DNA of 42,189 nt. Source: Calditrichota bacterium (GTDB lineage Bacteria; Zhuqueibacterota; JdFR-76; BMS3Abin05). The position numbers and the translations under genes were made by a program. Positions 25,501 to 31,756 of this stretch are shown here, in pieces (the stretch's first letter is position 1; every line of letters begins with the position of its first letter). Location: contig JAADHR010000050.1 of NCBI GenBank assembly GCA_013151735.1, positions 1 through 42,189 on the forward strand, read 5' to 3'. Under the pieces are notes generated by a model. It searched no databases. It saw only the letters and a program-made list of their open reading frames with translations, and was not told the origin of the DNA.

Positions 25501-26409
25501 ATGTTTGGATTAGGAAAACCGGTAAAGGTAGGTTTGGCCCTTGGGGGCGGTGGAGCCAAGGGATTTGCACATCTGGGCGTGCTCAGAGTGCTGGAAGACA
25601 ATCATATTCCGATTCAGATTATTACGGGAACAAGCGCCGGTTCGATTGCGGGGGCCATGTACGCCCAGTTGGGACGCATTGACGCGGTTGAAGAAAAAAT
25701 GCTTGGGCTTCTGCGGACGGATTTCATCAAAAAAAATAAATTGGATCTCATGGTTCCGCCCAAAGAGTGGGAGCGGCAAAAACTCCTCAAGCGGGTGGGA
25801 TATTTTGTAAAACAGCAGTTTATTCTTTCCCGGACCTTTGTTCGGATGAGCTTCTTCGAAGCCGATGTTTTGGAAGAGGCTCTTTCGTATCTGCTGGAAG
25901 ATACGGATATTCGCGAAACCAAAATTCCTTTCGGCGCTGCCACGGTAGATTATCTCTCCGGACAAAGGATTCTTTTGACGGAGGGCCCGATTCGAAAGGC
26001 CGTGGCGGCCAGCTGCACCATCCCCGGCGTATTTCCGCCGGTTCCCTGGGACGGCATGAAATTGGTAGATGGGGGCGTAACCAGCCTGGTTCCGGTTGTT
26101 GAAGCGCATGAAATGGGCGCCACATTCGTGATCGGGGTCAATGTGAGTCCCGGGATTGAAGAGGACCTCGATGTTCGGAATGCGCTTGAACTGATGTTCC
26201 GGGCAGACGAAATTACCAGTCATTATTTGACCATGGAACAATTGAAACAGGCTCACGTTGTCATCCACCCCGATTTAGGCCGGATTCACTGGGCCGATTT
26301 TAAAAATGCGGATACCATGATCCGCATTGGAATGGAAACGGCAGAGAAAAAGATTACGGAAGTCAAAAAAGCCCTGAAAAAGAAAAAACGCCATCATTGG
26401 CTTATTTAG
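25501..26409 (+). CDS. Patatin-like phospholipase (RssA/YchK type)
   Basis: The 302-residue protein has the full patatin dyad: oxyanion loop GLALGGGGAKGFAHLGVLRV (11-30), nucleophile Ser45 in GTSAGS and Asp190 in VDGG. It lacks a signal peptide and should be cytoplasmic or bound to the inner-membrane face. The closest architectural matches are bacterial NTE/RssA-like lysophospholipases or phospholipase A. It begins 40 bp after mlaD with AAAGGGAACGG upstream and appears to be the last gene of the mla operon. The context suggests that phospholipids brought to the inner membrane could be hydrolysed here; that link is inference. Confidence 0.87.
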   Translation: MFGLGKPVKVGLALGGGGAKGFAHLGVLRVLEDNHIPIQIITGTSAGSIAGAMYAQLGRIDAVEEKMLGLLRTDFIKKNKLDLMVPPKEWERQKLLKRVGYFVKQQFILSRTFVRMSFFEADVLEEALSYLLEDTDIRETKIPFGAATVDYLSGQRILLTEGPIRKAVAASCTIPGVFPPVPWDGMKLVDGGVTSLVPVVEAHEMGATFVIGVNVSPGIEEDLDVRNALELMFRADEITSHYLTMEQLKQAHVVIHPDLGRIHWADFKNADTMIRIGMETAEKKITEVKKALKKKKRHHWLI

Positions 26410-27404: not shown

Positions 27405-29546
27405 GTGACGATTTTTGCATTGCCGGTGAGTCTGGCATTTGTCATAAATCTGACACTTGCCATTTTCGTTTTTCTTTATAATCCACATCGGTTGGTGAAT
27501 CGCCTGTTCGGCCTCTTTGTTTTCTTCTTTGCCATCTGGAATCTGGGCGAATTCATCATGATTATTAGCAAGGTAGATGCCATCACCCTCTGGGGCATCC
27601 GCCTGATTCTGTTCGGAATGTTTTTGTCCCCGGCCTTTTTTCTCCATTTCAGCCTGATTTTCCCCCGTCGGATCCGTTTGCCCATTCTGGAAAAACTGGA
27701 ACTCATTCCCATTTACACGGTTCCCCTGTTTTTATTTCTGATTTCAATCTGGGGCACACACATTGAAATTCACCGCATACCCGAACTGGACAATATTTGC
27801 TACTATTCGTTTAACATTCGCAGCGTGCTGGGGCTGGTACGGGTTTCTCTGATTGTTGCGTACAGCTTTCTTTGGTACGGCTGGGGGGTTTTGAATCTGA
27901 CCCGTGCCCTGCGCAAAAGGGTTTCGGCCCGGGAACAGTTAAAAATAAAATACCTTATTATCGGCGTTGGTCTTATTTTTTTGATTGGAATTCTGGTGGG
28001 GTTATCCCGGCTGTTTTTTTCCACCGGCAAAATGTTCTTTTTCCTGGGAAGCTCTTACACCATTTTGATTAGTCTGTTTCTGGGGGCCGCCATTTTCAAG
28101 GTCAAACTCTTGAACATTCGCCTGCTGATATCCAAAAGTCTGACGTATTTTATTGTAACCAGTCTGCTGCTGTCCGTTTACATCCTTCTGATCAAAAACA
28201 TTGCCCAGATGCTGGCTGAGGCCTATGGGGTCACGTCCAGTCTGATCGAAGGCGGGCTCATTGTTATTTTTGTCTTCCTCCTGCGTCCGCTGGAAAAGGT
28301 GGTCAGCACATTTTTGGATCAATTCTTTTTTAAAGAATACTTTCAGATGCGGGAGCGAATGAGTTCCTTTCAGCGGGAATTGTTGAGCTGCCTGGACCAA
28401 ACCCACCTGGCGTGCAAAATAACCGATTTTTTATCCAAGGAAATCGGGTTTCCCAAGGTGATGATTGTCATTTCGGATGATCAGGCTATGGGGCGGTATC
28501 GATCGGCGTGTGCTGTCGGATGGCGGAAAAAGGTTGAATTTTTCGAAAGCGATCCCCTGATTGAGTGGATCCGGAAGAAAAAAGCGCTTCTCGGACGCGA
28601 CGAGCTGCTCAGTCTGCTTCCTCAAAAAGAACGGGAAAAACCGCCATTTAACCACACAGCCCTTATTCTGCCGTTGATTGGGGAAGAAAATGTGCTGGGT
28701 CTTGTGTTCCTGTCCTTCTTTCCCAATCAAAGGAAATTCTCGGAAGATTGGCTTGAATTACTGGAAATTTTTGCCAGCCAGATTTCATTGGCCATTTTGC
28801 GGGTTCAAACCATTCAAAAGGTGCAGGCCAAAGAACGGGAACTGGTTCAGGCCGAAAAATTGGCGGCTTTGGGACGAATGATTGCCATCGTTTCCCATGA
28901 AATCCGAAATCCTCTTGGCGTCATTCAAACCTCTGCGGAAACGCTTCTGGAACAACCCGATCATCTGACGGAAACTCAAAAGGAGATTTTGACGTTTATC
29001 TTGCAGGAAACCGATCGGCTCACGCGTATTTTGACCGATTTCCTGACATTTGCCAAACCACAGCCCATTCGCAGGGTTCCCGTGGAATTGCAGACCCTGG
29101 TGAGCCGGGTTTTTCGAATGCTGGAAAGGGAAGCCCAACAAAAGGGGCATGTACTGCGACTCGAAAAAAGTTCCCGGCCCATTTGGGTCAAAGGGGATCC
29201 GGATCAATTGTATCAGGCCCTTTTGAATCTGGGACTTAACGGATTGGAAGCGATGTCCCGCGGCGGCGAGTTGATTATTCGCCTGATGCCGATTTCGAAA
29301 AAGTGGGTGGCTCTCGAGGTGGAGGACCAGGGAAAGGGAATTGCCGTTGAAGATCAAAAGAGAGTGTTTGATCCCTTCTTCACAACCAAAGAAAAGGGTT
29401 CGGGTATTGGGTTGGCTATCGTGAAACGTATTATAAAGGAACACGGGGGAAATGTGGAATTTGATACGAACGCCGAAGGGACCGTTTTCAAAATCTACTT
29501 ACCGCTGAATGAGAATCGATTAATGAATCCGAAAGAAATGGAATAG
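27405..29546 (+). CDS. Membrane-bound sensor histidine kinase (7TM, GAF-like, HisKA, HATPase)
   Basis: GTG 27405 begins the 713-residue protein directly at its first helix. Residues 1-~240 form seven or so hydrophobic helices as in the 7TM histidine-kinase sensor region. Residues ~320-470 resemble a GAF domain (FLSKEIGFPKVMIVISDD, HTALILPLIGEENVLGLVFLSFF). HisKA carries phospho-acceptor His498 in AIVSHEIRNPLG. The ATPase domain has the N box LNLGLNGLEAM, the G1 box DQGKGI and the G2 box GSGIGLAI. It should respond to a membrane or small-molecule signal and phosphorylate the NtrC-type regulator encoded 83 bp downstream. The signal is unknown. Confidence 0.88.
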   Translation: MTIFALPVSLAFVINLTLAIFVFLYNPHRLVNRLFGLFVFFFAIWNLGEFIMIISKVDAITLWGIRLILFGMFLSPAFFLHFSLIFPRRIRLPILEKLELIPIYTVPLFLFLISIWGTHIEIHRIPELDNICYYSFNIRSVLGLVRVSLIVAYSFLWYGWGVLNLTRALRKRVSAREQLKIKYLIIGVGLIFLIGILVGLSRLFFSTGKMFFFLGSSYTILISLFLGAAIFKVKLLNIRLLISKSLTYFIVTSLLLSVYILLIKNIAQMLAEAYGVTSSLIEGGLIVIFVFLLRPLEKVVSTFLDQFFFKEYFQMRERMSSFQRELLSCLDQTHLACKITDFLSKEIGFPKVMIVISDDQAMGRYRSACAVGWRKKVEFFESDPLIEWIRKKKALLGRDELLSLLPQKEREKPPFNHTALILPLIGEENVLGLVFLSFFPNQRKFSEDWLELLEIFASQISLAILRVQTIQKVQAKERELVQAEKLAALGRMIAIVSHEIRNPLGVIQTSAETLLEQPDHLTETQKEILTFILQETDRLTRILTDFLTFAKPQPIRRVPVELQTLVSRVFRMLEREAQQKGHVLRLEKSSRPIWVKGDPDQLYQALLNLGLNGLEAMSRGGELIIRLMPISKKWVALEVEDQGKGIAVEDQKRVFDPFFTTKEKGSGIGLAIVKRIIKEHGGNVEFDTNAEGTVFKIYLPLNENRLMNPKEME

Positions 29547-29629: not shown

Positions 29630-31039
29630 ATGAGCAAAAAAGAAAGCATTTTGATTGTTGAAGACGAACCCCGGCTGCTGCGATTGCTGGAAATAAACCT
29701 TCAATCCCAGTTTGATGTCACCACCGTTTCAAATGGCACCGAGGCCCTCTCAAAAATTCAGAAGGAGTCATTTGATGCCATCCTGTCGGATATCCGCTTG
29801 CCGGGTGCGTCGGGCATGGATATTCTGAAGGCCTCCATTCGGAAGGATCCCGAAATTCCGGTTATCCTCGTTACGGCCTTTGGAACGGTGGAAAATGCCG
29901 TGGAAGCCATGAAGATCGGGGCGTTTGATTATCTGGTAAAGCCGGTGAAAATCAAAGAACTGAAAATGGTTCTGGAGAGGGCGTTCCAGTTTCGTGCGCT
30001 TCGACGCGAAAACAGGGAACTCCGAAAAACCATCCGTTCCCTTCGAATGAAGCTGCCGGAATTTATTACCGTCAATCCGCGGATGCAGGCTATTCTAAAG
30101 CGGGTTCGGGATGTGGCCCCCACAGGGGCAACCGTGCTGATTCAGGGCAAAAGCGGTACGGGGAAGGAGTTGATTGCTCAGATGATTCATCAGCTCAGCG
30201 ACCGCTCCGACGGGCCGTTTGTACCGGTCAATTGCGCGGCCATTCCTCAGGATTTGTTGGAAAGCGAACTTTTCGGACACGAAAGGGGAGCCTTTACAGG
30301 AGCGGTTCATCAAAAAAAGGGGAAATTTGAACTGGCCAATGGAGGCACCTTTTTCCTGGATGAGATCGCCGAACTGCCGCTCAATTTACAGGCCAAACTT
30401 CTGCGGGTGCTGGAAACCCACCAGGTCAGCCGGGTGGGGGGAACCCAAACCCTCGACGTGGATGTACGGGTCATCGCCGCTACCAACCGGGACTTACAGA
30501 AACTTGTCAGGGAAGGCGGGTTTCGCGAAGACCTGTTCTACCGGTTAAATGTGGTTAAAATTAGTTTGCCGGAACTGAGAGAACGGCCGGATGACATCCC
30601 CGTGCTGGTGGATTATTTTCTGCGGAAGTATCGGGAGGAGCTTAAAAAGGACGTGACCTCTGTTTCGCCGGAGGCTCAGCGGGTGTTGATGCAGTACCCC
30701 TGGCCGGGAAATGTGCGCGAACTGGAAAATGTGGTGTACCGCGCCGTTTTATTTGTGGAAGGGACTGAAATCCGGCCGGAGCATCTTCCGGAGGAGCTTC
30801 GGGCCGGTGGGCATGAATCGGGACATGATATTCCGCAGACAAAAGATGAATTGCTCGCTGCCAAGAAAAAGTTGAAACAGGAGGTTATCCAGGCCCTCGA
30901 AAAACGCTTTCTTGAAAATGCGCTTCAGGACAATGAGTGGAATATTTCCCGAACGGCCCGCGCCGTGGGAATGGATCGGCGGCAGCTTCAGAACATGATT
31001 CGCCGCCACAAGATTGCATTTCCTTCCATAAAAGAATAG
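29630..31039 (+). CDS. NtrC-family sigma54-dependent response regulator
   Basis: The 469-residue protein has all three modules. The receiver (1-~120) has the acidic pocket E11/D12 and phospho-acceptor Asp54 (ILSDIRLPG). The AAA+ domain has Walker A GKSGTGKE (173-180), the sigma54-contacting loop GAFTGA (220-225), Walker B FFLDE (Asp244-Glu245) and arginine fingers in the [11 protein letters not shown] region. The C-terminal Fis-type helix-turn-helix (~435-463) reads [22 protein letters not shown]. Intact GAFTGA shows that it is a true sigma54 activator. Its probable targets are the twin inverted repeats at 31147 and 31216 and the sigma54 promoter at 31308, all immediately downstream. AAGGA lies before ATG 29630. 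Confidence 0.95.
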
Positions 31040-31146: not shown

Positions 31147-31165
31147 TGCGATTAAAATACTCGCA
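31147..31165. promoter_or_regulatory. Enhancer-like inverted repeat, site 1
   Basis: TGCGATTAAAATACTCGCA is an inverted repeat TGCGA-N9-TCGCA. It matches site 2 (31216-31234) in arms, spacer length and flanks: 20 of 25 bases agree over the extended sites. It lies about 145-160 bp upstream of the sigma54 -24 element, a normal distance for binding of an NtrC-type activator. Confidence 0.7.
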
Positions 31166-31215
31166 CATCTAATCACTTAATTATAAACCATTATCCCCCA
31201 TTCCTCAATCCAACC

Positions 31216-31234
31216 TGCGAATAAACCATTCGCA
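31216..31234. promoter_or_regulatory. Enhancer-like inverted repeat, site 2
   Basis: TGCGAATAAACCATTCGCA has the same TGCGA-N9-TCGCA form as site 1. The two centres are 69 bp apart. This copy lies about 75-92 bp upstream of the sigma54 -24 element. Confidence 0.7.
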
Positions 31235-31307
31235 CTTCCGCCTCCCACACGCGGCAAGTCATTTTTCAACATACAAAAAAACAATAGGTTAGATTGTACG
31301 TAAACTC

Positions 31308-31323
31308 TGGCATTCCAATTGCA
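31308..31323 (+). promoter_or_regulatory. Sigma54 (-24/-12) promoter
   Basis: TGGCATTCCAATTGCA fits the consensus TGGCAC-N5-TTGCA with one mismatch (T for C at the sixth base), and the GG and GC dinucleotides are correctly spaced. Transcription would start near 31334, about 50 nt before ATG 31386. It is directly downstream of a gene for a GAFTGA-bearing activator. Confidence 0.8.
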
Positions 31324-31385
31324 CATAAAAGAAACAGATGGTTGGTTAAATGAAATAATTCATTGAGGAAAGGAGGGATTAAAAA

Positions 31386-31706
31386 ATGTGGCAAGGCTGG
31401 CTGAGTGGTATTTTGGGATTGTGGTCTATTGTGGCCGCGTTTGTGTTGACCGGTTCTAAAACCGGAAACATTATCAATGATCTCATTCTTGGGATCGTAT
31501 GGTTTATCGCCGGTTTCACATTAACCAAAATGTGGAATGGTTGGGTAGTCGGAATCCTCGGAATCTGGTTTGTCATTTCCGCGTTTATTTTTCCGGCGGC
31601 AGCAACCACGAATTTCTGGAATGATCTGATTGTTGGAATTATCGTGGCTGTGGTAGGATTCTTGAGCCTGACGGAACGCAAGGAAATGCAGCACAAAACG
31701 GCGTAA
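31386..31706 (+). CDS. Small SPW-repeat membrane protein
   Basis: The 106-residue protein has four hydrophobic helices arranged as an internal duplication. Each half has a tryptophan segment (LGLWSIVAAFVL and LGIWFVISAFIF) followed by a second helix (DLILGIVWFIAGF and DLIVGIIVAVVGF). This is the layout of SPW-repeat proteins, whose function is not established. The ribosome site AAAGGAGGGATT is very strong, so high expression is expected once the sigma54 promoter fires. It is the first gene after that promoter and is closed by a terminator-like hairpin, so it may be the chief output of the adjacent two-component system. Confidence 0.78.
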   Translation: MWQGWLSGILGLWSIVAAFVLTGSKTGNIINDLILGIVWFIAGFTLTKMWNGWVVGILGIWFVISAFIFPAAATTNFWNDLIVGIIVAVVGFLSLTERKEMQHKTA

Positions 31707-31716
31707 CGGCTTATTT

Positions 31717-31756
31717 GGGGATGGTCTGTCTGAAAAAGGCCATCCCCTCATTTTTT
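31717..31756 (+). terminator. Terminator-like hairpin after the SPW gene
   Basis: GGGGATGG (31717-31724) pairs perfectly with CCATCCCC (31740-31747) across a 15-nt loop and is followed by TCATTTTTT. It lies 10 bp after the SPW stop and 22 bp before the next ATG, so it may only attenuate transcription into the radical SAM gene. Confidence 0.65.

Follow-up and report, generated by a model that had tools for sequence, protein, structure and literature searches.

Among sigma54-dependent systems, ZraSR drives the neighbouring single-gene envelope-stress target zraP, and PspF activates a membrane-protecting gene by way of upstream sites and IHF. At PEP-CTERM promoters a regulator motif, which may itself repeat, lies approximately 60 bp upstream of the -24/-12 element, and the motif 1 published for PrsR has TTTACA as its last bases (Haft et al. 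2006, PMC1569441). For the SPW-repeat family of membrane proteins, a search of the literature returned structure modelling alone (PMC8078820), with nothing on regulation or function. Here we analysed a window of 42,189 nucleotides (the whole of the stretch of DNA studied, from contig JAADHR010000050.1 of a Calditrichota bacterium), in which a sequence-only reading had proposed a local sigma54 circuit assigning one regulator, through twin sites, to an SPW-repeat gene. The features of the locus, with the evidence for each, are as follows.

27405..29546, + strand: sensor histidine kinase (Pfam, motifs, hydropathy)
29630..31039, + strand: NtrC-type sigma54 activator (Pfam, motifs, clade membership)
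31147..31165, no strand: predicted distal activator-site dyad, TGCGATTAAAATACTCGCA (pattern, shuffles, conservation)
31216..31234, no strand: predicted proximal activator-site dyad, TGCGAATAAACCATTCGCA, 69 bp from the distal (pattern, shuffles, conservation)
31274..31291, + strand: tentative third conserved element (motif search)
31308..31323, + strand: predicted -24/-12 sigma54 promoter, TGGCATTCCAATTGCA (pattern, conserved in relatives)
31369..31379, + strand: strong ribosome-binding site, AAAGGAGGGAT (sequence)
31386..31706, + strand: SPW-repeat membrane protein of 106 aa, the putative target gene (PF03779)
31717..31756, + strand: terminator-like hairpin, GGGGATGG...CCATCCCC, then TCATTTTTT (hairpin scan)

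Pfam and motif checks agreed with the description of the upstream pair as a kinase and an activator with intact GAFTGA and a Fis-type domain. The kinase was found to consist, in order, of a HisKA_7TM-like multi-helix N-terminal membrane region, GAF, HisKA (HEIRNP at residue 498) and HATPase_c, with PF16927 scoring 28.4 bits, just under the cut-off of 28.6. The activator carries receiver, sigma54-interaction (AAA+) and Fis-type HTH_8 domains, with SDIRLPG at residue 53 of the receiver, Walker A GKSGTGKE at 173, GAFTGA at 220-225 and DRRQLQN in the HTH_8 recognition helix; by its receiver Asp, Walker A, GAFTGA and Fis-type HTH it is a response regulator of the NtrC-family type (domains, motifs and invariant columns). 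The genome, a draft of 225 contigs, encodes approximately 34 sigma54 activators, and a check for rpoN found it on contig C108 (212 bits). A patatin-like phospholipase gene lies upstream of the kinase (25501-26409); such a gene often precedes the kinase in Calditrichota and is found near SPW genes in some Melioribacteraceae (together L023, L024, L025, L026 and L074). The downstream radical-SAM, HAD and sugar-nucleotide genes were ruled out as parts of the module, being kept in Bacterium BMS3Bbin03 alone.

The promoter was confirmed as the sole TGGCAY-N5-TTGCA match in the window, where 0.07 would be expected; it has the TGGCAY-N5-TTGCW form with GG/GC spacing and is conserved, and from its spacing transcription is predicted to start at approximately 31333. 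The gene that follows the very strong ribosome site scored 72.5 bits with PF03779 (cut-off 31.5), and a structure prediction of fair confidence (pLDDT 82) placed four helices at residues 2-20, 25-45, 50-68 and 73-104, so modelling it as a clear two-repeat, four-helix member of the family; a structure search of the PDB gave no relatives below E 0.47. Directly after its stop codon there is a strong hairpin (31717-31747) followed by a T-run, absent from a stricter scan in which the loop was limited to 8 bases, and the unit is therefore probably monocistronic, comprising promoter, one gene and terminator.

Upstream of the promoter, the two reported copies of TGCGA-N9-TCGCA were present as described and nowhere else in the window (0.03 expected; two copies in 0 of 100 shuffles), and a recount of the palindromes with their flanks likewise gave 20 of 25 bases in common. 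Their centres lie approximately 108 and 177 bp upstream of the predicted SPW transcription start. In the closest relative, Bacterium BMS3Bbin03 (genome G001, locus L023) of the same genus, whose SPW protein is 82% identical, the half-site bases of the dyads were identical at 20 of 20 positions and the central bases at 11 of 18, with a period of 69 bp in both genomes and the -24/-12 core conserved (TGGCATAGTGATTGCG). The spacer between the dyads matched at only 19 of 50 bases (38%), and the remaining intergenic region aligned no better than shuffled sequence. Selection on binding sites would be expected to leave the half-sites intact while the spacer diverges, which suggested that the dyads may be such sites.

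To see how widely this arrangement occurs, GTDB genomes were scanned, giving 54 SPW loci. An activator of this kind stood directly upstream of the SPW gene in 31 of the loci examined, with the dyad pair in 29 of those 31; a 7TM/GAF-type kinase usually precedes the activator, and in most cases compared the kinase orthologue adjoins it on its upstream side. The hosts are Calditrichia/Calditrichaceae (Calditrichota), KSB1, Bacteroidales, Melioribacteraceae/Ignavibacteriales (Ignavibacteria) and deltaproteobacterial or Syntrophus bins. As judged from these loci, kinase, NtrC-type activator, twin dyads, -24/-12 promoter and SPW membrane protein form a conserved module, and the general site is predicted to be TGYGAAATNNNATTTCRCA, of which the dyads of the window would be a diverged form (22 of 32 matches to the cross-phylum consensus; 20 bits with the site model). 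The TGYGAAATNNNATTTCRCA pair was found in 36 of the 38 SPW upstream regions that have TGG[CT][AG]-N7-TG (p<=0.01, 200 shuffles each), a count that is partly circular because the consensus was read from those loci; the site model nevertheless picked up L024 and L031, two loci outside its training set, with scores of 37 and 36 bits. Across loci the 19-bp dyads are spaced 63-71 bp apart, and the distance from the start of the proximal dyad to the -24 box is usually 78-107 bp. The distal dyad is symmetric, with a ATTTCACA end; in the proximal the usual end is ATTTCCCA, and this contrast persists from phylum to phylum.

The same loci bear on whether the -24/-12 match could be fortuitous, with the SPW gene served by a housekeeping promoter and the conservation due to another feature, for example an mRNA leader. 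The plain -24/-12 pattern had approximately 22 matches in the genome of the window against 7 in a reversed control, so some single matches must be chance. However, TGGCAC-type elements recur approximately 55-90 bp before SPW start codons, and within that range TGG[CT][AG]-N7-TG was found across phyla and usually beat its own shuffles. A housekeeping promoter was rejected, as a scan of the + strand from the activator to the SPW start gave no sigma70-type match, and an RNA element was rejected, as no Rfam family matched the SPW upstream region. We consider a chance promoter extremely unlikely.

Some loci departed from the common arrangement. At L010/L032 (G005) neither the kinase nor the activator is in a single frame, each being split over several, and the dyads persist beside a degraded -24/-12 element (TGGTAC...GTGTA), as would be seen in a decaying module or with frameshifts in the draft. 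In a Bacteroidales locus (L048) four SPW genes follow the activator in a row. WOR-3 genomes (L042, L044, L045, L047, L050, L068) have SPW genes without the dyads, -24/-12 elements or activator clade, and some of these genomes carry several SPW copies.

The dyads could in principle bind some other regulator, repressor or activator, with the adjacent NtrC-type gene a mere neighbour. Such palindromes are typical of one-component regulators as well, and any other of the approximately 34 sigma54 activators of the genome could act at them. Against this, the 29 SPW-linked activators tested formed one clade with support of 1.0, in a tree where 25 other sigma54 activators of the same genome all fell outside. 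Their recognition helix, G[YM][DN]RRQ[IL]QN[LM], is near-invariant and unlike those of the 25 others. The activators of the window and of BMS3Bbin03, the deepest branches of the clade, have a variant 10-residue helix in place of GYDRRQIQNL, and their dyads have diverged too, which would fit a joint change of protein and site.

A profile of the activator C-terminus, searched in 19 genomes, tested the association in trans. Matches of 70-134 bits were obtained in 8 of the 10 genomes with dyad-bearing SPW genes (in G106 on a fragment), including G087 and G094, in both of which the activator is encoded apart from the dyad-bearing SPW gene; the match was missing from G110 and G118, small or fragmentary draft MAGs for which absence is weak evidence. 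None of the 8 genomes whose SPW genes are free of dyads (Fibrobacter, WOR-3, Aminicenantes, Acidobacteria, Thermotogaceae and Parcubacteria bins, again draft MAGs) had a strong match, the best scoring 35 bits, and G119 was left unclassed, as a contig end cuts off its SPW upstream region. Dyads and activator clade thus usually appear to co-occur across phyla, also when non-adjacent. With the dyads also at a typical enhancer distance from the -24/-12 promoter and their spacing constrained, we regard a different regulator as improbable. The elements are present and conserved, the activators are a single clade and the two co-occur; this recurrence of clade, twin dyads and SPW gene across several phyla largely bears out the assignment of regulator, site and target that had been proposed from one locus. 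Both of the sequence tests suggested with that proposal gave results in its favour, as did both of the refuting conditions open to computation, a genome lacking rpoN and loss of the repeats or the -24/-12 element in close relatives, neither of which was found.

Between the proximal dyad and the promoter, a motif search recovered a further element, TTGtaaTTCAAtaAGTTA; most copies lie 25 or 34-36 bp upstream of the -24 box, and the log-likelihood was 242 compared with 183-195 in six shuffles. In the window its core, AAACAATAGGTTA (31279-31291), differs from the IHF core WATCARNNNNTTR at a single position; the second copy within the same genome reads TATCAAGAAGTTA, and some copies match the IHF core. 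With one mismatch or fewer, WATCARNNNNTTR was found in 11 of 37 loci where approximately 3.9 were expected, a modest excess, and the genome has three HU/IHF-family genes, with HU and IHF not told apart. An IHF-like site is a reasonable reading, and the element is possibly one.

The scan of the whole genome that had been suggested to define the regulon returned two twin-site loci, both upstream of SPW genes, with 47.6 and 20.3 bits from the twin-site model and the next match a weak one at 15.7 bits. The locus outside the window is on contig C155 (L008, 9308-13675), a further kinase-activator-SPW module with near-consensus dyads; its activator gene has one in-frame TAA inside the AAA+ domain. 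This stop may be a draft error, or the activator of the window might act on the SPW gene there. Exact TGCGA-N9-TCGCA occurs at 8 sites in the genome, 3 of them upstream of the two SPW genes and the remaining 5, by inspection, apparently in or at coding sequence, and none of the other 20 TGGCAY-N6-TGCA matches in the genome has good dyads. A large regulon was ruled out by these palindrome positions, dyad-less promoters and weak lower model matches; with good twin sites at just two places, each preceding an SPW gene, a dedicated switch is the better reading, and the regulon in this genome appears, from its sites, to be the SPW genes only. A strong TGGCACG-type -24/-12 match without dyads precedes each of two genes of small heat-shock protein appearance, as judged by eye (L089 and L090, contig C157), for which sigma54 control by another activator is possible.

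Twin-site matches across 28 other genomes were almost all SPW promoters. BMS3Bbin03 has a second target (L109/L110, G001:C16:83373-83967) with twin dyads at 69-bp spacing and TGGCACACAGATTGCT, encoding a small membrane protein of approximately 96 aa weakly similar to PF04226 (19.3 bits, below cut-off); a counterpart in the genome of the window was rejected, as the orthologue on C66 lacks the sites. In a Bacteroidetes bin (G106) there were two further candidate dyad pairs (L142 and L143), upstream of a predicted exported or outer-membrane-like protein and of a protein starting MQLLDRQLRK. The additional target and these candidates suggest that SPW is not the sole target everywhere.

Taken as a whole, and on sequence evidence throughout, the locus is very probably a dedicated two-component, sigma54-dependent switch with SPW as its single output. 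By analogy with the well-studied NtrC family, phosphotransfer, binding, bending and transcription would proceed as follows. The membrane kinase would sense a signal, probably membrane-related, and phosphorylate the activator, dimers of which would bind both dyads and then assemble on the pair. Helped perhaps by DNA bending at the third element, the activator would remodel sigma54-RNA polymerase at TGGCATTCCAATTGCA, with opening at -24/-12. The output would be one mRNA for the four-helix SPW membrane protein, ended by the terminator. The patatin-like phospholipase neighbour and the small membrane-protein target of BMS3Bbin03 suggest a membrane or envelope response, and, most speculatively, SPW might help the inner membrane to cope with stress. 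A tentative extension, which we hold to be doubtful, is that 7TM-type kinases and DRRQxQN-type activators induce SPW effectors, and sometimes other small membrane proteins, in a cross-phylum pathway of membrane homeostasis not recognised before, along the lines of the Psp or Zra responses.

Through this switch, a family of uncharacterised membrane proteins becomes linked to a single kinase, activator clade, DNA site and promoter type, in the same geometry in several phyla. The switch gives a handle on the role of SPW, through the signal of the kinase or through deletion or overexpression of the single target, and a natural set in which to study how sigma54 enhancers keep twin-site spacing and site symmetry; the site model also annotates part of the sigma54 network of poorly known phyla.

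Of the described systems, PrsK/PrsR is similar in having a membrane histidine kinase with a tandem NtrC-type regulator, and the pair could be a member of it, with SPW among many exopolysaccharide or PEP-CTERM-type targets. The kinase scores in TIGR02916 and the activator in TIGR02915, and the single-gene target, upstream motif, spacer and -24/-12 box resemble the layout of PEP-CTERM promoters (PMC1569441). These scores were far under the curated cut-offs (132 against 300 bits and 426 against 503 bits), and the site is TGYGAAATNNNATTTCRCA, upstream of SPW and with ATTTCRCA where the published motif 1 ends TTTACA before PEP-CTERM genes. Two sites are nearly always present here, the gene controlled would be SPW, and the genome of the window showed no multi-gene regulon; we consider membership very improbable. 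AtoS/ZraS and AtoC/ZraR were among the best NCBIfam matches for kinase and activator, but fell far short of the equivalog cut-offs (AtoC 493 against 714, ZraR 371 against 760, ZraS 193 against 479), and both sensor region and target differ from those of ZraSR and AtoSC. The activator also scored under the PspF cut-off (TIGR02974, 299 against 444 bits); unlike PspF it has a receiver domain and a partner kinase, and its putative target is not PspA. The type of mechanism is known, and the regulon appears undescribed in the literature searched. With the curated cut-offs missed and a DNA site unlike the PrsR motif, we therefore propose that the regulon, its site and its target family are all new, and that it would work overall like sigma54 two-component systems such as ZraSR.
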